A stretch of DNA of 33,760 nt from a virus, in the IMG/VR virus record IMGVR_UViG_3300044632_001447, positions 1 to 33,760 of that record, one strand, 5' to 3'. The notes under the pieces are model-generated. The model was not told where the DNA came from, made no database searches, and saw only the letters and a program-made list of their open reading frames with translations. Position numbers and translations under genes: made by a program. Every line of letters starts with the position of its first letter. Position 1 is the first letter of the stretch. Shown piece by piece: positions 21,377 through 33,760 of the stretch.

Positions 21377-21696
21377 GCCGGCACCCGCAGCGCAGCGGCG
21401 ATCGATCGCATGTAGCGCCCCAAGTCGCAGTTCAGCTTGCCAAGCTCGGCGCGCAGCTGCGTGGCATCGGCCCAGCCCGGATTGCGCCCGGTCGCGACCC
21501 AGAACACGCGGGCATCGCCGGTGCCGGTCGGGTCGAGGATCGTGGCCCGGCCGTTGCGCTTGGCCAGCCATTCGCGCTGGGTGTCGGACGGCGGAGCGCC
21601 GACGATGCGGAGGTTTAGCCGGGGATCGTCGGGCGACACGGGCCAGACGCAGGCCACGGCCTGGTCGAGCGGGATCAGGGGGGCGGCGTCAGCCAT
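21373..21696 (-). CDS. Conserved hypothetical protein upstream of terminase
   Basis: 107 aa starting MADAAPLIPLDQAVACVWPV. Segments 'NLRIVGAPPSDTQREWLAKR' and 'DARVFWVATGRNPGWADATQ' show no family I recognise. GGAGG lies 6 nt before ATG 21696, and the gene overlaps the DUF1376 stop by 8 nt. It may be a packaging or replication accessory protein, judged only from place. Confidence 0.55.
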   Translation of the reverse strand: MADAAPLIPLDQAVACVWPVSPDDPRLNLRIVGAPPSDTQREWLAKRNGRATILDPTGTGDARVFWVATGRNPGWADATQLRAELGKLNCDLGRYMRSIAAALRVPA

Positions 21697-22573
21697 GGGC
21701 GGCCTCCGGTCGGGCGCGGACGTCGTAGCCATCGAGGGCCTGGGCGAACTCGGCGCGGCAGTGGTCGGCGTGGAAGCGGGACGGCGCGATCAGCACGGGC
21801 CTGCCGTCGAGGCTCTCGACCTCAATCAGCGGCTCGATCCATCGGCCGAACAGCGCGGGCGTCAGGCCCAGCGTGCGGCATCGCGGCCAGAGCGGGTGAT
21901 CGGGCTCGGGAGGCGGCGGCGCGGCGGCCTTCGCCTTCGCGGCTTGCGCCCTCGGGTTGCTGCCGTTCGCTCGCAACCCGCGCCACTGCCCATTCCAGTC
22001 CGAAGGACGATCTGACCCCCCGTCGCCGTCAGGCGATGGGGTTGGGGGTTCTTCTATTATTCCCTGTCCCTGTCCCTGTCCCTGTCCCTTGGAGCCTGTG
22101 ACATTCTCTGTGACAGAGGGTGTGACATGCGCTGTAGCAATGTCTGTGCGGTCGCTGTTGCTGCCATTGTCACGTTGGCGGCGGTTGGCTTCGCGTGCTG
22201 CTCTCGCAGCCTCTGTGCGAGCGCGCTGCGCCAGCCTCGCTTCCCAGGCTTCCTTGGCCTTCTCGGCCACCACGGGGTGATACAGGCGCCCGTCGCGGGC
22301 CTTGACCCAGCCGCGCAGCGCCATGTCCTTCACTTTGCGCCACCCGGTGCCGGCGCCAGACAGATGCGCCAGGATCCGGTCGTCGTCGGGCAGACTCCCG
22401 GCCGGCACTTGCAGGAACGCCTTGCCCCAGAGGGTAAACGCGGCCTTGAACTCATCGCCGGTCGAGAGCGCGTAGAGATCGCTGTCGAACAGCCGCACCA
22501 GGTCCACCGGCATGAAAGGCATCCCCCGCAGATCGCAGCCGGGCGGCGTCAGGGGCTCGGGAAGGTCGCTCAT
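21689..22573 (-). CDS. DUF1376 (YdaU-like) phage replication protein
   Basis: 294 aa. 'MPVDLVRLFDSDLYALSTGD' and 'FKAAFTLWGKAFLQVPAGSL', 'PDDDRILAHL', then 'MALRGWVKARDGRLYHPVVA' are the DUF1376 arrangement (winged-helix-like domain of phage replication-initiation proteins). A variable linker follows, including (GQ)4-5 coded by a hexanucleotide tandem repeat at 22062-22089. The C-terminal 'GLTPALFGRWIEPLIEVESL' resembles the DnaA-N/helicase-loader-like tail of such proteins. No DnaB, DnaC, primase or polymerase is present in the window, so it probably recruits host enzymes. ATG 22573 overlaps the upstream stop. Confidence 0.75.
   Translation of the reverse strand: MSDLPEPLTPPGCDLRGMPFMPVDLVRLFDSDLYALSTGDEFKAAFTLWGKAFLQVPAGSLPDDDRILAHLSGAGTGWRKVKDMALRGWVKARDGRLYHPVVAEKAKEAWEARLAQRARTEAARAAREANRRQRDNGSNSDRTDIATAHVTPSVTENVTGSKGQGQGQGQGIIEEPPTPSPDGDGGSDRPSDWNGQWRGLRANGSNPRAQAAKAKAAAPPPPEPDHPLWPRCRTLGLTPALFGRWIEPLIEVESLDGRPVLIAPSRFHADHCRAEFAQALDGYDVRARPEAAHG
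22062..22089. repeat. Hexanucleotide tandem repeat (CCCTGT)4.7
   Basis: Four exact CCCTGT units plus CCCT inside the DUF1376 gene. On the coding strand they give alternating Gly-Gln. As the unit is two codons long, slippage changes linker length without shifting the frame. Confidence 0.9.
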
Positions 22574-22932
22574 GCGTCGGTGCTCCCGATGGGCACGGCG
22601 CGCAGCGTCAGCCCCACGACGTTCAATGCGGCCTCCAGGTGCGCCGCGTTCGGCGCGTATTCGTGCTGCCAGGACCAATGGCTCTTGGCGCACACGCCGG
22701 CGCGGCGCATGACCTCGGCCAGCGGGATGCCCTGCTCGCGCGCGGCGGAGCGCATGGCGTCAACCGGCTGCATGCGGATGCGGGGTTCGCGCGGGACGCG
22801 CGGGCGGGTGGTGGCGCTCATGGTGTCGGGTCGCTCCTGCGGCTGGCCGACAGTCGATCTAGCGCCACCGCCGCGCCGCGTGTCGCCAAACTGAGGTGGA
22901 CGCTTGTGGACATCGGGGATCGTCGCGCTCAT
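22570..22932 (-). CDS. Small DNA-binding-type phage protein
   Basis: 120 aa from ATG 22932, which overlaps the upstream stop by ATGA. A second possible start is ATG 22821 (83 aa), with AGGAG about 12 nt upstream. The C-terminal half 'AMRSAAREQGIPLAEVMRRA' followed by 'HWSWQHEYAPNAAHLEAALN' and 'VVGLTLRAV' looks like a Cro/XRE-type helix-turn-helix with a rigid tail ('..L..ALN.LGL.L'). The N-terminal 37 residues are charged and low-complexity. It is a probable regulator of the leftward operon. Confidence 0.6.
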   Translation of the reverse strand: MSATIPDVHKRPPQFGDTRRGGGARSTVGQPQERPDTMSATTRPRVPREPRIRMQPVDAMRSAAREQGIPLAEVMRRAGVCAKSHWSWQHEYAPNAAHLEAALNVVGLTLRAVPIGSTDA

Positions 22933-23156
22933 GCCGCGCGCCCCGTGCTACGCGCTTCGACGTAGCGCACCACCTTCCGCAGCCCGAGGGCGCGCAGGAT
23001 AGACTCGCCCGGGTCGCGCCGCGCGTTCAGCACATCGCAGACATAGGCCGCCGAAACGCCGTTCTGTTGCGCCCAGGCCTGCTGCCCGCCGGCGGCGCGG
23101 CACGCGGCCATAAGGCGCGCGCAGACATCGAGGGAGGTGAGCCCCGGCGCGCTCAT
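22929..23156 (-). CDS. Small HTH transcriptional regulator
   Basis: 75 aa. 'LMAACRAAGGQQAWAQQNGV' followed by 'SAAYVCDVLNARRDPGESIL' and 'RALGLRKVVRYV' is a standard phage helix-turn-helix pattern ('..AGSQ.AWA...GVS..YVSDVL.GRR.PG..IL.ALGL..V..Y'). ATG 23156 overlaps the VRR-NUC gene stop by ATGA and is preferred to the upstream in-frame start. Its targets are unknown. Confidence 0.75.
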   Translation of the reverse strand: MSAPGLTSLDVCARLMAACRAAGGQQAWAQQNGVSAAYVCDVLNARRDPGESILRALGLRKVVRYVEARSTGRAA

Positions 23157-23581
23157 ACCCGCCACCCCGCTTGCCGCAGCAGTTCCACCGCCTCATCCTG
23201 ATCGCGGACCAGCCCGGTGAGGTGCCCCATCCGGGCGAGCGTGGCGCGGGTCTCGGCCTGGCGCTGCCAATGGGCGGTGGCCTTCGCGTTGCGTGGCCGG
23301 GCACCAGGGGCCTTCACTTCCAGGAACGCGGTGCGGCCATCGCCGGACATGACGGTCAGGTCGGGGAAGCCGAGGATCGTCCCCTGGATTTTCAACCCGC
23401 GCCCGGCGGCGGCGGATCGCGCTTCGTTCGGGTTGGCCTGGCAGAGGATGCCGTGGAGCGCGAGGCGATTGCGGATCGCGTTGACGACTTGCGTCTCCGA
23501 TGGCTGAGGCGCCTTCGCCGGGCGCTTGCGCGGGATCACGGCGGCAAGTGTTTCCCGCCCGAGGTGCAGATCATTGGCCAT
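23153..23581 (-). CDS. VRR-NUC domain nuclease
   Basis: 142 aa. Residues 28-140 form a PD-(D/E)XK-type VRR-NUC domain: E29 in PSETQVV, GFPDLTV (71-77; D74), then FLEVK (86-90; E88 and K90) and Q106 in the following helix. Phage VRR-NUC proteins are stand-alone Holliday-junction or structure-specific nucleases that process replication and recombination intermediates. ATG 23581 overlaps the upstream stop (TGATG). It lies on the opposite strand from RecE/RecT, so it is expressed with the replication/late block rather than the recombination operon. Confidence 0.85.
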   Translation of the reverse strand: MANDLHLGRETLAAVIPRKRPAKAPQPSETQVVNAIRNRLALHGILCQANPNEARSAAAGRGLKIQGTILGFPDLTVMSGDGRTAFLEVKAPGARPRNAKATAHWQRQAETRATLARMGHLTGLVRDQDEAVELLRQAGWRV

Positions 23582-24039
23582 CACCGCCACCCCACCCCGC
23601 TGTTGTGCGGCTCTTGGACATCGGCGGCCGGCGGGCAGACGGTGACGCTGCGCCGTGCGAGGAATTGCGCGACCAGCGCATTGGCTTCCTCGCGGGACGG
23701 TCGCCCGAGAGCCTGAAGGCGCGTGTCGCAGCGGCGCCACTCCCGGCTTTTGATCAGGTTCGCCTGCCGTTGCTGGGCGCGGGTGCGCTTTGGGTTCGGC
23801 GGCGCCAGCGGGGCGGCGACGGCTTGATCGCGGGCTTGGTGCTTGTTTCCCCCGCCAGAAAGCCGCCCGGCAGGCTGTGACACCTGCCGGGCGCAGTTGA
23901 GGGAGGAAACGCGGCAGACGCCGGCGTCGCTAGTCCCCTCGCCGGCTAGGGGATCGGATGCGGCGGGGCTGGGCACGATGCCCGTGGGGGTGGCCCCGCC
24001 GCTACGCGCGGCGGCGGGCCGCGCGGTCTCGTTGCTCAC
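23581..24039 (-). CDS. Hypothetical protein, disordered N-terminus
   Basis: 152 aa with a GTG start at 24039, supported by GGAGGTGA about 5 nt upstream and a GTGA overlap with the preceding stop. The first 80 residues are Ala/Gly/Pro/Ser-rich. The C-terminal part 'KRTRAQQRQANLIKSREWRR' and 'SREEANALVAQFLARRSVTV' is basic and helical and may bind nucleic acid. Family not recognised. Confidence 0.5.
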   Translation of the reverse strand: MSNETARPAAARSGGATPTGIVPSPAASDPLAGEGTSDAGVCRVSSLNCARQVSQPAGRLSGGGNKHQARDQAVAAPLAPPNPKRTRAQQRQANLIKSREWRRCDTRLQALGRPSREEANALVAQFLARRSVTVCPPAADVQEPHNSGVGWR

Positions 24040-24329
24040 CGCGTCACCTCCGTGCCGCCAGCCACCGCAGCGCCTTGGCCCGAGCCAGTCGCAGCGCGAT
24101 CTCCGCGCGCAGCAGCCAGACGACGAGCCAGAGCGGCAGCGAGTGCTTCATCACGTTCAGCCATCAGCAAGAGGGTTGCGGCGGAAGGGATGGAGCGGCC
24201 GCGCATCCAGTCCCGTGCGGTTTCGTAGGCGACGCCGGCCGCGCGGGCGGCGAGCTTCGCGCCGTGGCGAGGCCAGGCGTCGCGAAGCAGTGGGGGGATG
24301 CCGCCCCCCGTCTGCGTGGTGGCGCTCAT
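24036..24329 (-). CDS. Small HTH regulator (phage type)
   Basis: 97 aa. 'LLRDAWPRHGAKLAARAAGV' followed by 'AYETARDWMRGRSIPSAATL' and 'LLMAERDEALAAALARRL' is a helix-turn-helix arrangement common in alphaproteobacterial prophages ('....WP..A.K..ARAAG.S..TA..W..G...PS...LL.......'). ATG 24329 has a GGGGGCGG stretch upstream. The upstream gap is filled exactly by a 23-codon ORF. Probable second regulator downstream of Cro. Confidence 0.7.
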   Translation of the reverse strand: MSATTQTGGGIPPLLRDAWPRHGAKLAARAAGVAYETARDWMRGRSIPSAATLLLMAERDEALAAALARRLAAARGDRAATGSGQGAAVAGGTEVTR

Positions 24330-24397
24330 CGGCCGCCCCCGCCATGCTGCACGACATGAACAGGCAGCCAGACCGAACCCCACCATGCGAGAGGCAT
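24326..24397 (-). CDS. Tryptophan-rich 23-residue micro-ORF between cro and HTH genes
   Basis: ATG at 24397 overlaps the Cro-like stop as TGATG, and the TGA at 24328-24326 overlaps the next gene's ATG, so the frame tiles the whole gap. The product MPLAWWGSVWLPVHVVQHGG plus GGR has an aromatic, hydrophobic first half. All neighbours use the same overlap style, which supports translation. It is too short for family recognition and could equally be a leader that only carries ribosomes across. Confidence 0.4.
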   Translation of the reverse strand: MPLAWWGSVWLPVHVVQHGGGGR

Positions 24398-24615
24398 CAC
24401 GTGGCGCATTCCGGCGTCGGAAACAGCTGCGGCAGATCAGGGCGGAGTTCGTGCGCCGGGATGCCAGTCAAAGTGCTGACGGCAGGGACGTGCTGTGGCG
24501 GCACAACTGCCCATGAATAGGGGGTCGCGGCATCCAGCCCGCAGGCGCGCGCAAGCGAGGTTCGCTTGACGCCGCTACGGGCAAGGACATCGGTGATGGG
24601 GAGTGGTTGGGCCAT
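24397..24615 (-). CDS. Cro/YdaS-like antirepressor-side regulator
   Basis: 72 aa starting MAQPLPITDVLARSGVKRTS, then LARACGLDAATPYSWAVVPP and VSTLTGIPAHELRPDLPQLF. This is the Cro/YdaS pattern ('..L...VG....LA..LGV....VS.W....VP...C..I...TG....ELRPD'). It is the first leftward gene, divergent from the XRE repressor and preceded by operators at 24623-24638 and 24658-24673. The predicted promoter places the transcript start at or next to the ATG, so the mRNA may be leaderless. It would repress the repressor and set the lytic state; this is inferred from family and position. Confidence 0.8.
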   Translation of the reverse strand: MAQPLPITDVLARSGVKRTSLARACGLDAATPYSWAVVPPQHVPAVSTLTGIPAHELRPDLPQLFPTPECAT

Positions 24616-24620
24616 GCCTA

Positions 24621-24650
24621 ATCTTGGGCGAACCCAAGTTGAGCCGTCAA
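24621..24650 (-). promoter_or_regulatory. Predicted leftward promoter of Cro/late operon
   Basis: On the minus strand TTGACG (24650-24645) is followed after 18 nt by CAAGAT (24626-24621). The downstream operator (24623-24638) covers the spacer and -10 region, and a second operator (24658-24673) lies 7 nt upstream of the -35 box. The -10 is weak by consensus (3 of 6, keeping A2 and T6). Confidence 0.55.
24623..24638. promoter_or_regulatory. Operator OL1 (TTGGG-N4-CCCAA)
   Basis: CTTGGGCGAACCCAAG: a perfect 6-bp inverted repeat around CGAA, inside the leftward promoter. It shares TTGGG-N4-CCCAA with three other sites around the repressor gene. Confidence 0.8.
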
Positions 24651-24657
24651 GTGAAAA

Positions 24658-24673
24658 ATTGGGCGCGCCCAAG
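24658..24673. promoter_or_regulatory. Operator OL2 (TTGGG-N4-CCCAA)
   Basis: ATTGGGCGCGCCCAAG: the inner 14 bp TTGGGCGCGCCCAA are a perfect palindrome. It is centred 35 bp from OL1 and lies upstream of the leftward -35 box and in the repressor leader. Confidence 0.8.
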
Positions 24674-24706
24674 CGCGTATGCCGCGAGGCGTGCCACAAG
24701 CGGGGC

Positions 24707-25027
24707 ATGAAAGTCCATGGACAGAAGCTGCGGGCGCTCCGCAACGGGCTGCGAATCAAGCAGGTGGAAGCGGCCGAGTTCGCTGGGATCAGCGGTTCGC
24801 ACTTGAGCAAGGTGGAAGCCGGGGAAGACAACCTAAGCCTAGAAGCGGCCCTTAAGCTGGCTATCTTGTATCGGGTCGGCTTGGACGAGATCGCCCCGAA
24901 CGACGAGGCCTTGTCGCGGGTCGAGGTCGCCATAGACCCGGCCGAGGTGGATTGGCTTCGGGCCTATCGACACCTCAACCCCGAAGAGCGCGCGGGGGCT
25001 CGCGCCCTCATCAAACGGCGCGCCTAG
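24707..25027 (+). CDS. XRE-family phage repressor (CI-like)
   Basis: 106 aa starting MKVHGQKLRALRNGLRIKQV, then EAAEFAGISGSHLSKVEAGE and LSLEAALKLAILYRVGLDEI: a classic HTH_3 domain with recognition helix around SGSHLSKVEAG. The C-terminal 40 residues (EVDWLRAYRHLNPEERAGAR) are a short helical tail. There is no LexA-type Ser/Lys autoprotease domain, so RecA-driven self-cleavage is unlikely. It is the only plus-strand gene between the two operator pairs, as expected for the master repressor of both divergent operons. ATG 24707 is preferred over the long 5' extension that would run across the operators. Confidence 0.85.
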   Translation: MKVHGQKLRALRNGLRIKQVEAAEFAGISGSHLSKVEAGEDNLSLEAALKLAILYRVGLDEIAPNDEALSRVEVAIDPAEVDWLRAYRHLNPEERAGARALIKRRA

Positions 25028-25047
25028 CCGATTACATTTTCGAGAGA

Positions 25048-25063
25048 ATTGGGCGACCCCAAT
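25048..25063. promoter_or_regulatory. Operator OR1 (TTGGG-N4-CCCAA)
   Basis: ATTGGGCGACCCCAAT: a perfect 6-bp inverted repeat around CGAC, 20 nt after the repressor stop and 7 nt upstream of the rightward -35 box. Confidence 0.8.
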
Positions 25064-25070
25064 TTTCTTG

Positions 25071-25099
25071 TTGACTGCAAGCTTGGGTTTCCCCAAAGT
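25071..25099 (+). promoter_or_regulatory. Predicted rightward early promoter
   Basis: TTGACT (25071-25076), 17 nt, CAAAGT (25094-25099). The start would be near 25106, about 20 nt before the first early gene, which has GGGAG upstream. Operator OR2 (25082-25097) sits in the spacer and OR1 lies upstream of the -35. The -10 is weak by consensus. Confidence 0.55.
25082..25097. promoter_or_regulatory. Operator OR2 (TTGGG-N4-CCCAA)
   Basis: CTTGGGTTTCCCCAAA: TTGGG and CCCAA separated by four bases, inside the spacer of the rightward promoter and centred 34 bp from OR1. Confidence 0.75.
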
Positions 25100-25126
25100 G
25101 GCCCCACCAACCGGGAGCCGCTACCG

Positions 25127-26390: not shown

Positions 26391-26704
26391 CCCCCGCCGA
26401 CCGCATCGTCGCACACCTCCGCATCGCCGCAGAGACGGCCGCCGCGCATCACGCCGCGCGCCACCCTCACCGCCTCGCCCATGTCGCGCGCCTGCTGCGT
26501 CTGCGGGATGACTATCTCTCTGTCTACCACGCCATGCCCCCACGCGATCCGCGAGGGCATCGGGCGCGCCACCTAGCCGCGTGCGCCGCGTGGCGCGCGA
26601 TGGCGTATCAGGCGCTGGCCGCAGGTGACGCCTTGCTGGCCTGGCATCGGCGCGCCGCCGCCGCGCGCAGTTGGCGCGAGGCTATGACTGTGAGGGTCGC
26701 GTGA
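26387..26704 (+). CDS. His- and Ala-rich helical early protein
   Basis: 105 aa starting MTPADRIVAHLRIAAETAAA. It is very rich in Ala, Arg and His (for example AHHAARHPHRLAHVARLLRL). No domain recognised. It overlaps the next gene as TGATG, and its place directly before RecE suggests co-translation. Confidence 0.55.
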   Translation: MTPADRIVAHLRIAAETAAAHHAARHPHRLAHVARLLRLRDDYLSVYHAMPPRDPRGHRARHLAACAAWRAMAYQALAAGDALLAWHRRAAAARSWREAMTVRVA

Positions 26705-27516
26705 TGGCCCGCCCCGGCATCTACCCCGACATGGACGAGGCGACCTATCGCGCCACCCCTGCGGTGTCCTGCTCCACCCTCAAGCGGTTCGCGGACGCCC
26801 CGGCAAAAGCGCATGTCGCGCTGGCCGAGACGGACAGCATGCGCGCCGGTCGGCTGATCCATTCCGCCGTGATGGAGGCGTGGTCATTTGACGCGCGCTA
26901 TCAGCGGACGGATCTCGACCGGCGCGGCACCAAGGCGTGGCAGGAGGAGGAGGCCGCTGCGCTCTCCACCGGCCGCACGCTGATTAAGGTGGCCGAATAC
27001 GACAAGATGGCCGCGATCCGCGACGCGGTGCATTCGCACCCGGCGGCGCGCGAGTTGCTCGCGCCCGGCTTAACGACCGAGACGGCGGTCTTCTGGGATG
27101 ACCCGCTGACCGGCAGGCCTTGCCGCGCCCGCATGGACGGCATCCGCCGGGACATGCGGCTGGTGCTGGACGTCAAGACCACGGGCGACGCCAGCCCGCG
27201 GGAGTTCGCGCGCTCCGCTGCGAAACTGCGGATGCACTGGCAGGCCCCCTGGTATCTCGACGGCATCGCCGCCGCACCCGGCGGCTTCAAGCCCGAGGCG
27301 TTCCTGTTCATCGCCGTGGAGCGCGACGCGCCGCACCTGATCGCGGTCTACGAACTGCCGACCGACGCGATCGATGCCGGCCGCCGCCAGATCCGCGCGG
27401 CGCTGCATGGCTACCTCGAATGCGAGCGTCGCGGCGACTGGCCCGGCTACCCGCCCACCATCACCCCCCTGCACCTGCCCGAATGGGCGATACTGGATGA
27501 GGAGAGCGCGACGTGA
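26704..27516 (+). CDS. RecE-like exonuclease (PD-(D/E)XK, exodeoxyribonuclease VIII type)
   Basis: 270 aa. 'SCSTLKRFADAPAKAHVAL' near the start and GRLIHSAVME (49-58; H53) open the family. The nuclease core shows ETAVFW (from E126), RARMDG (D145), LVLDVKTT (153-160; D156 and K158) and HWQAPWYLDG (168-177; Q170, Y174). It should degrade 5' ends of double-stranded DNA to give 3' tails for the RecT protein encoded next, with GTGA overlap. Length is typical of the phage-type single-domain RecE/PDDEXK exonucleases. Confidence 0.85.
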   Translation: MARPGIYPDMDEATYRATPAVSCSTLKRFADAPAKAHVALAETDSMRAGRLIHSAVMEAWSFDARYQRTDLDRRGTKAWQEEEAAALSTGRTLIKVAEYDKMAAIRDAVHSHPAARELLAPGLTTETAVFWDDPLTGRPCRARMDGIRRDMRLVLDVKTTGDASPREFARSAAKLRMHWQAPWYLDGIAAAPGGFKPEAFLFIAVERDAPHLIAVYELPTDAIDAGRRQIRAALHGYLECERRGDWPGYPPTITPLHLPEWAILDEESAT

Positions 27517-28355
27517 GCGCACACATGAACCCCACCGGCTCGGCCATCGAGGCCCCGACGCGCGGCCTCGCGCAGATGCGCCAGCCTGGCACGGCGCTGG
27601 CGGAGGCCAAGCCCGCCCGACCCATCGACGTTCTACGAAAGCAGTTGGCGAGCCTGCCGGAGATCGCGCAGAACCTGCCGTCCACGGTGTCGCCTGACAA
27701 GTTTCGCAACGTGGTGATCACGGCGGCCAACATGACGCCCGACCTGCTCGGCGCCGACCGCCGGTCCCTGCTGGGCGCGTGCGTGAAGTGTGCGGCGGAT
27801 GGGCTGGTGCCGGATGGCCGCGAGGCGGCGCTCGTCCTGATGGGCAACAAGGTCCAGTACATGCCGATGATCGCCGGCGTGCTGAAGCGCGCCCGCAACA
27901 GCGGCGAGATCGCATCGCTGGTGGTGCAGGTGGTCTATGAGCGCGACGCCTTCACCTGGTCGCCCTGCGATCCCGAGCGCCCCATCCAGCACACCACGCC
28001 GCCGCTGGCCGAGGAGCGCGGCGCGCCTATCGGTGCCTATGCCATCGCCCGGCTGAAGGACGGCAGCGTGATGGCCGAGGTGATGAGCAAGGCCGAGATT
28101 GAGAAGGTCCGGGGCGTGTCCCGCGCAAAGGGCAGCGGCCCCTGGGTGCAATGGTGGGACCAGATGGCCCGCAAGACCGTGCTGCGCCGCCTGTCGAAAT
28201 ACCTGCCGATGGATGCCGCGCCGATGGAGGCGCTGCTGCAGCGCGACGAGGAGCGCCCCGCGACGCCGACCGGCGAGGAAATCGTGGAGGCCGAGGCGGT
28301 GGAGATCCTGGACACCGCCGAGATCACCGACAGCCAGCCTGGGGATGACGTGTGA
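27513..28355 (+). CDS. recT: RecT single-strand annealing protein
   Basis: 280 aa. 'PSTVSPDKFRNVVITAANMT' followed by 'RRSLLGACVKCAADGLVPDG' and 'REAALVLMGNKVQYMPMIAG', then 'VLKRARNSGEIASLVVQVVY', is the RecT core ('F.......N.P.L....S...A...AA..GL.PDG....L.......Q.MP...G..K..R.SG.I'). 'SGPWVQWWDQMARKTVLRRL' is the conserved C-terminal helix ('..PW....D.M..KT..R...K'). It pairs 3' tails made by the RecE-like nuclease. Start GTG 27513 has GAGGAG upstream and overlaps the RecE stop; ATG 27525 is an alternative. Confidence 0.95.
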   Translation: MSAHMNPTGSAIEAPTRGLAQMRQPGTALAEAKPARPIDVLRKQLASLPEIAQNLPSTVSPDKFRNVVITAANMTPDLLGADRRSLLGACVKCAADGLVPDGREAALVLMGNKVQYMPMIAGVLKRARNSGEIASLVVQVVYERDAFTWSPCDPERPIQHTTPPLAEERGAPIGAYAIARLKDGSVMAEVMSKAEIEKVRGVSRAKGSGPWVQWWDQMARKTVLRRLSKYLPMDAAPMEALLQRDEERPATPTGEEIVEAEAVEILDTAEITDSQPGDDV

Positions 28356-32114: not shown

Positions 32115-32705
32115 TCACGCCGGATATTTCCGCCTATCCAACTCGAAATGCGGCCCATCAAACCACGGCTTGCCAGCCCGGTCTCGGAACGTCCCGCCCC
32201 ACACAATCGCCACGCCCTCATCATCCGCCGCGCGCTGCATCGCCTTGGCCAGCCGGCGGAACGCGGGCAGGTCTTCCCAGTCGAGCGGCACCGGCCCGAG
32301 ATCCACGGCGTGGCCGGTCAGGTGGCGGGAGCGCAGCGTCTGCGATGCGCCCTTCGCCACAAGCGCCGCCTGCCGATCAGCAGTCCGCACGCCCTCGATG
32401 ACCGTGAACGGCTCGCTTGCCCGCGCGCGGATCACCACCCGCACGAGGTCGGGATGCACGCCGGCCAAGCGCGAGATATCGCGCGGGGTCAGGCCAGCGG
32501 CGGCGGCTTTGATCGTGTCAAGACCGGGGAGCGCATCACCCACCGCATGGACAGGCACGGCGGGGGGCGTTGCCGCCCCCTCGCCTGCGCCATGCATGTT
32601 AGCGGCGCCATTTACCTCGGCCGGCGCTTGCGGCGGTGCGGACGGCAGGCCGGCAGCCTCTCGCCGAGGCGTCAGGAAGCCGGTCAGGCGGCGCAGCAGG
32701 CTCAT
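32115..32705 (-). CDS. Endolysin, M15 family L-alanyl-D-glutamate-type peptidase
   Basis: 196 aa. Residues 1-65 are a Pro/Ala/Gly linker, possibly a membrane- or virion-associated leader (MSLLRRLTGFLTPRREAAGL). The catalytic M15 domain covers 75-196: 'RLAGVHPDLVRVVIRARASE', S126-R-H128 and G131-H-A-V-D135 (zinc ligands H128 and D135), WGG (159-161) and DGPHFEL (183-189; H186, third ligand). This is the fold of phage Ala-Glu peptidases that cut the peptide stems of peptidoglycan. ATG 32705 overlaps the holin stop (ATGA). No signal peptide, so it depends on a holin. Confidence 0.9.
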   Translation of the reverse strand: MSLLRRLTGFLTPRREAAGLPSAPPQAPAEVNGAANMHGAGEGAATPPAVPVHAVGDALPGLDTIKAAAAGLTPRDISRLAGVHPDLVRVVIRARASEPFTVIEGVRTADRQAALVAKGASQTLRSRHLTGHAVDLGPVPLDWEDLPAFRRLAKAMQRAADDEGVAIVWGGTFRDRAGKPWFDGPHFELDRRKYPA

Positions 32706-33259
32706 CGACTTGGCCCCCCGCCGAAAGGGCCGGGCAGCGCGCGGCGCAAGGCCTCGTCCTTTCGCGCGCTGCCCGCAGACGACCCGACCCAATACGCGAC
32801 CACCGCCTGAGCCATGCCCAGCAGCCCGCCCAACAGCAGCAGCGCCAGTTCCCGCGAGCCCTCCGGGATTTCGCGCGCGACGATGCCGTACAGCGCGAAG
32901 CCGAAGGCCACCAGCACCAGCGCCGAGACGACCGGCGCGCCCCAGGCGATGGGCGACCCGGCGCGGGCCAAGTCAACCGTCTGGTCGCGCGCGCCGGCCA
33001 CATCGGCCAGCGTCGCGGCCAGGATCGCGCGTTCCTGCTCGGCCTCGATCCGCGCCAGTTCCAGCCGCAGATCGGCCGCGCGCTGGGGGTCGCGCAGCGC
33101 CAGCTCGATCTCGGCCGGGTCTTCGGACCTGACCACGGCACCGATGGCGCTGGTGATCTCACCGGCAATCGCGCCGGCCTTGTCGCCCGCCATGTGCTTG
33201 ATCAAGCCCGGCGCCAGAGAGGCGACGAGCGGCAGCAACGTCGCCAAGGGCAACGGCAT
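32702..33259 (-). CDS. GTA-type 3TM holin / lysis regulator
   Basis: 185 aa. N-terminal hydrophobic segment PLATLLPLVASLAPGLIKHM (2-21), then 'RDPQRAADLRLELARIEAEQ', then two transmembrane helices (about 104-126, IAWGAPVVSALVLVAFGFAL; and 136-157, SRELALLLLGGLLGMAQAVV), and the signature YWVGSSAGSARKDEALR. This order matches the GTA holin 3TM family of alphaproteobacterial phages and gene-transfer agents. It permeabilises the inner membrane so the endolysin reaches peptidoglycan. ATG 33259 has GGGAG 7 nt upstream. Confidence 0.85.
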   Translation of the reverse strand: MPLPLATLLPLVASLAPGLIKHMAGDKAGAIAGEITSAIGAVVRSEDPAEIELALRDPQRAADLRLELARIEAEQERAILAATLADVAGARDQTVDLARAGSPIAWGAPVVSALVLVAFGFALYGIVAREIPEGSRELALLLLGGLLGMAQAVVAYWVGSSAGSARKDEALRRALPGPFGGGPSR

Positions 33260-33274
33260 GCGTGTCTCCCGTGT

Positions 33275-33346
33275 TTATGATGATGCCGGCGGCCCGCCGG
33301 CGGGGTCAGTCCGCGCCTGCATGGCGCGCTTCTGGTTGCTGGTCAT
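33275..33346 (-). CDS. Possible 23-residue micro-ORF between the two holin genes
   Basis: ATG 33346 has AGAGG about 5 nt upstream; TAA at 33277-33275. Product MTSNQKRAMQARTDPAGGPP plus ASS. It fills most of the 103-nt gap between the upstream holin and the 3TM holin. Short and polar; could be chance. Confidence 0.35.
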   Translation of the reverse strand: MTSNQKRAMQARTDPAGGPPASS

Positions 33347-33362
33347 TGGTGCCTCTCTGCGA

Positions 33363-33692
33363 TCACCGAGGCGGCGCCTGGAGCCGAGAGCACGCGATGC
33401 GCTTCACGACCTCCCAGCCCAGCAGCCCGGAAAGGATGCCCGCGCCCACGGAGGCGGCGACACTGCCAGTCCACCACAGCGTCAGCGCCGCAATCGCGTA
33501 GCCGACGAGGGATTGCACCAGCCCATCGACCAGCACCGCGCGCCAAGGCCGAGCCGGGCCGGAATAAGTGGCCAGCCGCAGCACGGCGGCGGCGACCCCG
33601 GCGGCGCCCATGGCAAGGTGCGGCGCAGCGTCGGCGACGACCTTGGCTGCGGCCTGCGCCTCTTCAGACATAACACTGCCAGGTGGGGACAT
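33363..33692 (-). CDS. Putative small holin
   Basis: 109 aa from ATG 33692 (GGAG 8 nt upstream). A second start, ATG 33671 (MSEEAQAAAKVVADAAPHLA), overlaps the stop of the frame arriving from the right edge. Hydrophobic segments at about 36-50 (LAMGAAGVAAAVLRL), 66-86 (LVDGLVQSLVGYAIAALTLW) and 88-104 (TGSVAASVGAGILSGLLGWE), then a short basic tail (VVKRIACSRLQAPPR), fit a small phage holin. First gene of the lysis cassette. Two closely spaced starts recall holin/antiholin dual-start control, but this is speculative. Confidence 0.65.
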   Translation of the reverse strand: MSPPGSVMSEEAQAAAKVVADAAPHLAMGAAGVAAAVLRLATYSGPARPWRAVLVDGLVQSLVGYAIAALTLWWTGSVAASVGAGILSGLLGWEVVKRIACSRLQAPPR

Positions 33693-33760
33693 TGCGGCCA
33701 CTCCGGACGCAGCGCTTGTCTTCACGCGAAGCGATGGCGGCCATATGCTGCCCCCCCTCT
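33664..33760 (-). CDS. 3' end of an ORF entering from the right edge; likely end of the gene at position 1-311
   Basis: Read on the minus strand from 33760, one frame is open and ends at TGA 33666-33664, overlapping ATG 33671 of the holin by 8 nt. It contains ATG 33744 preceded by GAGGGGGGG, so it could also be a free 26-residue ORF (MAAIASREDKRCVRSGRNVP, then TWQCYV). If the window is circular, the gene at 311-1 continues exactly in this frame and totals 135 aa. Confidence 0.45.
   Translation of the reverse strand, partial: EGGQHMAAIASREDKRCVRSGRNVPTWQCYV

Follow-up and report, generated by a model that had tools for sequence, protein, structure and literature searches.

In phage lambda, the operators OR1, OR2, and OR3 are centered at positions −66, −42, and −19 relative to the start of the repressor gene cI. 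The cI transcript from PRM is leaderless, and CI bound to OR2 activates it. In CP-933P of Escherichia coli O157:H7, the analogs of CI and Cro are PaaR2, an XRE-family protein without a peptidase domain, and YdaS, both of which repress PR and PL (PMC8630535). These two promoters carry identical −35 and −10 elements, operators lie on both sides of the paaR2 locus, and PaaR2, while lacking a peptidase domain, forms octamers (PMC8630535). For HK022 and phiKO2, OL and OR flank the repressor gene at distances of approximately 700 and 630 bp, respectively, and looping by the repressor has been demonstrated for lambda, HK022, and phiKO2 (PMC8053113).

Here, we analyzed a stretch of 33,760 nucleotides (the window), which is a linear virus contig of 33.8 kb with 70% G+C that may be incomplete. 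We conclude that it very probably carries a compact lambda-type immunity region (OL-repressor-OR) that is built around a short PaaR2-like repressor without an autocleavage domain and belongs to a podovirus that is, or used to be, temperate. The genes concerned are the following:

21689..22693, minus strand: DUF1376 (YdaU-type) replication gene of the leftward operon (PF07120, above cut-off)
23153-23740: endonuclease-like gene of the leftward operon
24036..24386, minus strand: second leftward gene, in the cII/ydaT position (weak HTH_3 match under cut-off; role assigned from position only)
24397..24615, minus strand: YdaS/Cro-like regulator, 72 aa, first gene of the leftward operon (phrog_35 transcriptional repressor, 2.5e-6)
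24707..25027, plus strand: XRE/HTH_3 repressor, cI analog, 106 aa (HTH_3, 7.2e-11, cut-off passed)
26671..27516, plus strand: exonuclease VIII (RecE-like) of the rightward operon (phrog_412, 8.4e-79)
27513..28355, plus strand: RecT-like annealing protein of the rightward operon (phrog_148, 7.4e-63)

After the DUF1376 gene, the leftward operon continues with terminase and then the virion genes; the portal and terminase have relatives in podoviruses, for example Pelagibacter HTVC010P, and in environmental phages. The 72-aa regulator falls under the cut-off for Pfam YdaS_toxin, and its homolog in a related contig, L101 (IMGVR_UViG_3300010052_000145), passes the YdaS cut-off. This contig was found through RecT relatives among viral contigs; its RecT is 78% and its exonuclease VIII 74% identical to those of the window. 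The arrangement of the window is that of the lambdoid layout: an HTH repressor gene stands between two clusters of the same operator, the cro analog comes first in the divergent operon with the replication gene next, and the recombination genes lie opposite. No tyrosine integrase (PF00589) was matched in the window, serine integrases being covered by the Pfam scans of chosen ORFs; integrase-borne lysogeny is thus not indicated by the genes of this record, which is linear and may lack part of the genome. An M15 peptidase (lysis) gene occupies the right end of the window (32115-33760, minus strand) and a tail gene the left end (1-1485), which suggests that these ends are contiguous in the actual genome, as they are in phage ctEw122.

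The first-pass annotation had reported four sites of the form TTGGGN4CCCAA. A scan of the whole 33,760-base record, which it had proposed as a check, recovered all four and no other exact match; its coordinates are those of the 14-mers below extended by one base on each side. The predicted operators and early promoters are as follows:

24621..24650, minus strand: predicted leftward early promoter, PR-like (TTGACG at 24650-24645, 18 nt, CAAGAT at 24626-24621)
24624..24637: predicted operator O1, TTGGGCGAACCCAA, exact palindrome over the −10 box of the leftward promoter
24659..24672: predicted operator O2, TTGGGCGCGCCCAA, upstream of the leftward −35 box, centered at −41.5 from the repressor start codon
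25049..25062: predicted operator O3, TTGGGCGACCCCAA, upstream of the rightward −35 box
25071..25099, plus strand: predicted rightward early promoter, PL-like (TTGACT at 25071-25076, 17 nt, CAAAGT at 25094-25099)
25083..25096: predicted operator O4, TTGGGTTTCCCCAA, over the −10 box of the rightward promoter

The four exact palindromes all lie within 473 bp, in the two regions adjoining the repressor gene, whereas dinucleotide-preserving shuffles of the 33,760-base record gave an expectation of 0.01; a chance origin was therefore rejected. When two mismatches were allowed, nine matches were found against 11.9 expected, which is not above chance, and thus only the exact sites carry meaning. A candidate third left operator with two mismatches (TTGGGCCATGCCTA, 24607-24620), lying over the ydaS start codon, falls within this chance expectation and was set aside. 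Measured from start to start, the spacing is 35 bp in the left pair and 34 bp in the right pair, as had been annotated. The inner sites, O2 and O3, are 390 bp apart, and the module centers are separated by approximately 424 bp, close to the earlier estimate of about 420 bp.

Both modules show the same order of elements, namely an operator, 8 nt, TTGAC, 6–7 nt, and a second operator running into a weak −10 box. Inverting the left module onto the right one leaves this order unchanged, and the 8-nt T-rich stretches read TTTTTCAC and TTTTCTTG. The earlier description of two homologous modules that face outward with a short XRE repressor gene in between is upheld. Each operator pair does bracket a TTGACG or TTGACT box, at 24650-24645 (minus strand) and 25071-25076 (plus strand), and the gaps given previously for 16-mers agree with those counted from the 14-mers (8 + 7 nt on the left, 8 + 6 nt on the right).

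The early promoters were predicted from a hexamer scan together with a reading of the sequence. Their −10 boxes, CAAGAT and CAAAGT, are weak, with three of six consensus matches, and a standard sigma-70 scan found no promoter, the leftward one scoring under its cut-off. The predicted leftward start coincides with the ydaS ATG at 24615 to within one or two bases, so that the transcript would be leaderless; L101 repeats this geometry, with a TTGACC-to-ATG distance that puts the predicted start equally close to its own ydaS ATG. Unlike ydaS, the rightward gene has a leader with a GGGAG ribosome site at 25113-25117. Judged by sequence alone, the two early promoters point apart and are overlapped by operators, and L101 keeps this arrangement. 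Collectively, these features support the first-pass proposal that the four palindromes act as operators in a switch centered on the XRE repressor.

For the repressor itself, Pfam matched only HTH_3 and HTH_31, and no C-terminal peptidase or oligomerization domain was found in its 106 residues; the protein was therefore not placed in the lambda CI family (LexA-like, with S24 autocleavage). No close homolog was found in viral, phage, plasmid, or genome collections, where the remote matches comprise one partial stretch in the genomes and weak, HTH-only similarities in the plasmids. Weak sequence matches in the PDB include C.AhdI, C.BclI, and DdrO, and a single-sequence AlphaFold model reached a pLDDT of 51, which is too low for fold comparison. 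An ImmR/DdrO-type repressor working with an M78 (ImmA/IrrE) protease was considered and rejected, despite the weak DdrO match, as no match to PF06114 was found in the window.

Relative to the repressor ATG (A = +1), the window has operator centers at −76.5 and −41.5, and L101 has them at −76, −41, and −17. Neither contig shows a well-placed ribosome site upstream of this ATG, and the hexamer scan gave no convincing plus-strand promoter for the repressor gene of the window. Because a well-placed ribosome site is absent and O2 is centered near −41, we surmise that the repressor transcript is leaderless and is activated from O2. A third, OR3-like operator over the repressor's own promoter is present in L101, whereas the window has no exact site there; thus, self-shutoff at high repressor levels would be weaker in the window or would proceed by another route. 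Since an OR3-like site is not universal, its lack was not taken as excluding the window from the lambdoid layout class.

The comparison with L101 concerns the switch in particular. Beside YdaS, L101 encodes an XRE repressor that is 29% identical to that of the window over 101 residues, the C-terminal end included. Its two mirrored, outward-facing modules are composed of GTGAN7TCAC operators around TTGACC, and their spacings (left, 35 bp; right, 34 bp) equal those of the window. In a scan of 271 loci for mirrored pairs, only the window and the L101 contig (in several overlapping loci) were positive, and dinucleotide-matched controls contained none. A strict palindrome scan had missed L101 because its operator arms are only four bases long; the looser scan caught it with a clean control. 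The operator sequence is thus wholly replaced while the geometry is unchanged, which argues strongly, at the level of sequence, that the geometry works. The relationship between the two contigs is reminiscent of the way in which lambdoid phages swap immunity specificity. The inner-site distance is 672 bp in L101 versus 390 bp in the window, so loop length is not kept. Furthermore, the virion genes of L101 show no match to those of the window in the parts compared, so that what the two contigs share is the early region. At its end, the L101 contig carries a tyrosine integrase. The third GTGAN7TCAC of L101, at 1670-1684, has its center 17 bp upstream of the repressor start codon, which corresponds to the place of OR3 in lambda, and it has no counterpart in the window. 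In the search for further relatives, L101 was the only one found with the same layout.

Two other podovirus relatives, ctEw122 (L098, 10893-11292) and Limnohabitans DC33 (L099, 10641-11159), have the RecE/RecT and YdaS-like plan with no XRE gene between the operons, which suggests that they are strictly lytic cousins of the switch-bearing lineage. Their switch regions contain no TTGGGN4CCCAA pairs. The record of Limnohabitans DC33 files this virus under Inoviridae, although both its gene content and its genome size (39 kb) are those of a podovirus. None of the terminase relatives has paired sites, the closest ones ending before the switch region, and no exonuclease relative other than the L101 contig is close. 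Among other viral contigs, paired TTGGGN4CCCAA sites gave three unrelated matches. In one of these (L001:11238-11283), an unrelated phage that carries an integrase has two such sites 32 bp apart between two divergent XRE genes, where the same operator sequence appears to be in independent use. A looser operator pattern matched 58 times in viral contigs, 57 of these being one stretch shared by freshwater contigs. This TTGGGN4CCCAA-TTGAC-TTGGG stretch is nearly unchanged in L199-L256 except L252 (for example, L199:3684-3727); it appears to be part of a conserved coding region and was rejected as a switch.

Based on the sites, their geometry, and the gene order, we propose how the switch might operate. 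Dimers of the 106-aa repressor would bind all four TTGGGN4CCCAA operators. Because O1 and O4 lie over −10 boxes, their occupancy would block both early operons: at O1, leftward transcription of the YdaS-like Cro, replication, and late genes, and at O4, rightward transcription of exonuclease VIII and RecT. O2 is centered 41.5 bp before the repressor start, a position like that of lambda OR2, and by this analogy the repressor bound there probably activates its own gene. Each pair, O1/O2 and O3/O4, is probably bound cooperatively, and the two pairs may be bridged by a loop of approximately 400 bp. The YdaS-like protein would play the part of Cro and push the switch toward lytic growth. As the repressor has no autocleavage domain, induction through RecA cleavage is unlikely. 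A more specific form of the proposal, which we regard as rather doubtful, is a minimal four-site switch, devoid of an autocleavage domain, an OR3-like site, and a phage integrase, in which the 106-aa repressor would control the two outward early promoters by means of exactly two cooperative pairs and a loop of approximately 400 bp around its own gene, with non-integrated lysogeny and RecA-independent induction, the 35/34-bp geometry being fixed and the operator and repressor specificities being swapped between relatives.

Whether the separation of the modules has a role is the question on which the readings lie closest. The first-pass annotation held that the mirrored pairs would allow looping around the repressor gene, which is plausible by analogy with lambda, HK022, and phiKO2, where it has been shown (PMC8053113). 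In a local alternative, to which we give nearly even chances, the two divergent early promoters are simply repressed and the 400-bp separation has no role. The repressor indeed lacks the C-terminal oligomerization domain of the lambda type, and the distance between inner sites (390 bp in the window, 672 bp in L101) is not fixed. However, loops do not require a fixed length, the repressors of lambda, HK022, and phiKO2 loop (PMC8053113), and PaaR2 forms octamers without a peptidase domain (PMC8630535).

It is improbable that the sites serve mainly as operators of the YdaS/Cro-like protein in a lytic timing circuit, with the XRE protein recognizing something else. Such a circuit would fit ctEw122 and Limnohabitans DC33, which place a YdaS-like gene by the recombination operon with no annotated XRE gene between; their switch regions, however, are devoid of TTGGGN4CCCAA pairs, and the sites flank the XRE gene in both L101 and the window. 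Repressor and Cro share their operator regions in both lambda and CP-933P (PMC8630535), and binding by YdaS is therefore likely an addition rather than an alternative. Most improbable of all is a host-type regulator or restriction-control (C-protein) circuit on a lytic phage in place of an immunity switch. The weak PDB matches to C.AhdI and C.BclI and the integrase-free window point that way, but no restriction gene lies beside the repressor, the relative L101 carries an integrase, and both early operons appear from their sequence to be under the control of the sites, with Cro-replication and RecE/RecT arms that match those of Rac and lambda. A lambda-type immunity region thus remains the preferred reading.

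As such, the window offers a compact and fully readable lambda-type switch in a podovirus lineage, with an uncharacterized short repressor. Of note are the 35/34-bp geometry, kept with swapped operators, the −41 position, and three features that the window was not found to have, namely a third site, an autocleavage domain, and an integrase. Between the window and L101, both the spacing and the placement with respect to the repressor start are conserved while the operator is replaced, as expected of immunity-specificity exchange. Moreover, with four sites and one small protein, the switch would be a simple model in which to study cooperativity, self-activation, and looping by a repressor that lacks the C-terminal domain of lambda CI.

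The claim that this plan is unlike lambda was not borne out. In the annotated lambda record, OL1-3 and OR1-3 also flank the cI-rex block, and PL and PR are directed outward from it; as in the window, the repressor gene lies between two operator clusters with early promoters diverging outward, cro comes first on one arm and the recombination genes lie on the other, and OR2 is at −42. The lambda gene plan is that of the window reversed (PR-cro-replication-late versus PL-recombination, with the repressor transcribed away from cro). The differences are that lambda has three operators per cluster, clusters 2.3 kb apart, rexAB in between, and an autocleavage/oligomerization domain in CI. Nor do mirrored pairs mark a departure, since Rac, CP-933P, HK022, and phiKO2 likewise have operators on both sides of the repressor gene. 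HK022 and phiKO2 share with the window a short OL-OR distance around this gene, and looping was shown there; their repressors are homologous to other lambdoid ones (PMC8053113), and their operators differ. Rac of E. coli K-12 is closer than lambda: on either side of racR, TTGACA stands between mirrored palindromes of the TAGGC type, with recE/recT on one arm and ydaS-ydaT-ydaU (DUF1376) on the other. However, its operator sequence is different, its spacing is 26 bp, RacR has 158 aa and no detectable sequence similarity to the window repressor, and an integrase is present. CP-933P, for which the arrangement has been established by experiment (PMC8630535), resembles the window in its short peptidase-less XRE repressor, YdaS as Cro, and divergent PR and PL. 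It differs in having 18-bp repeats of the GTTTAGTAA type (four copies at PR, three at PL) and toxin-antitoxin genes after paaR2, whereas the window has two sites on each side, of another sequence, and nothing between the repressor and PL. Collectively, the PaaR2/YdaS and Rac immunity regions are the nearest known kin of this switch, and its mirrored identical modules around the repressor are not new; they are the usual lambdoid plan in compressed form.
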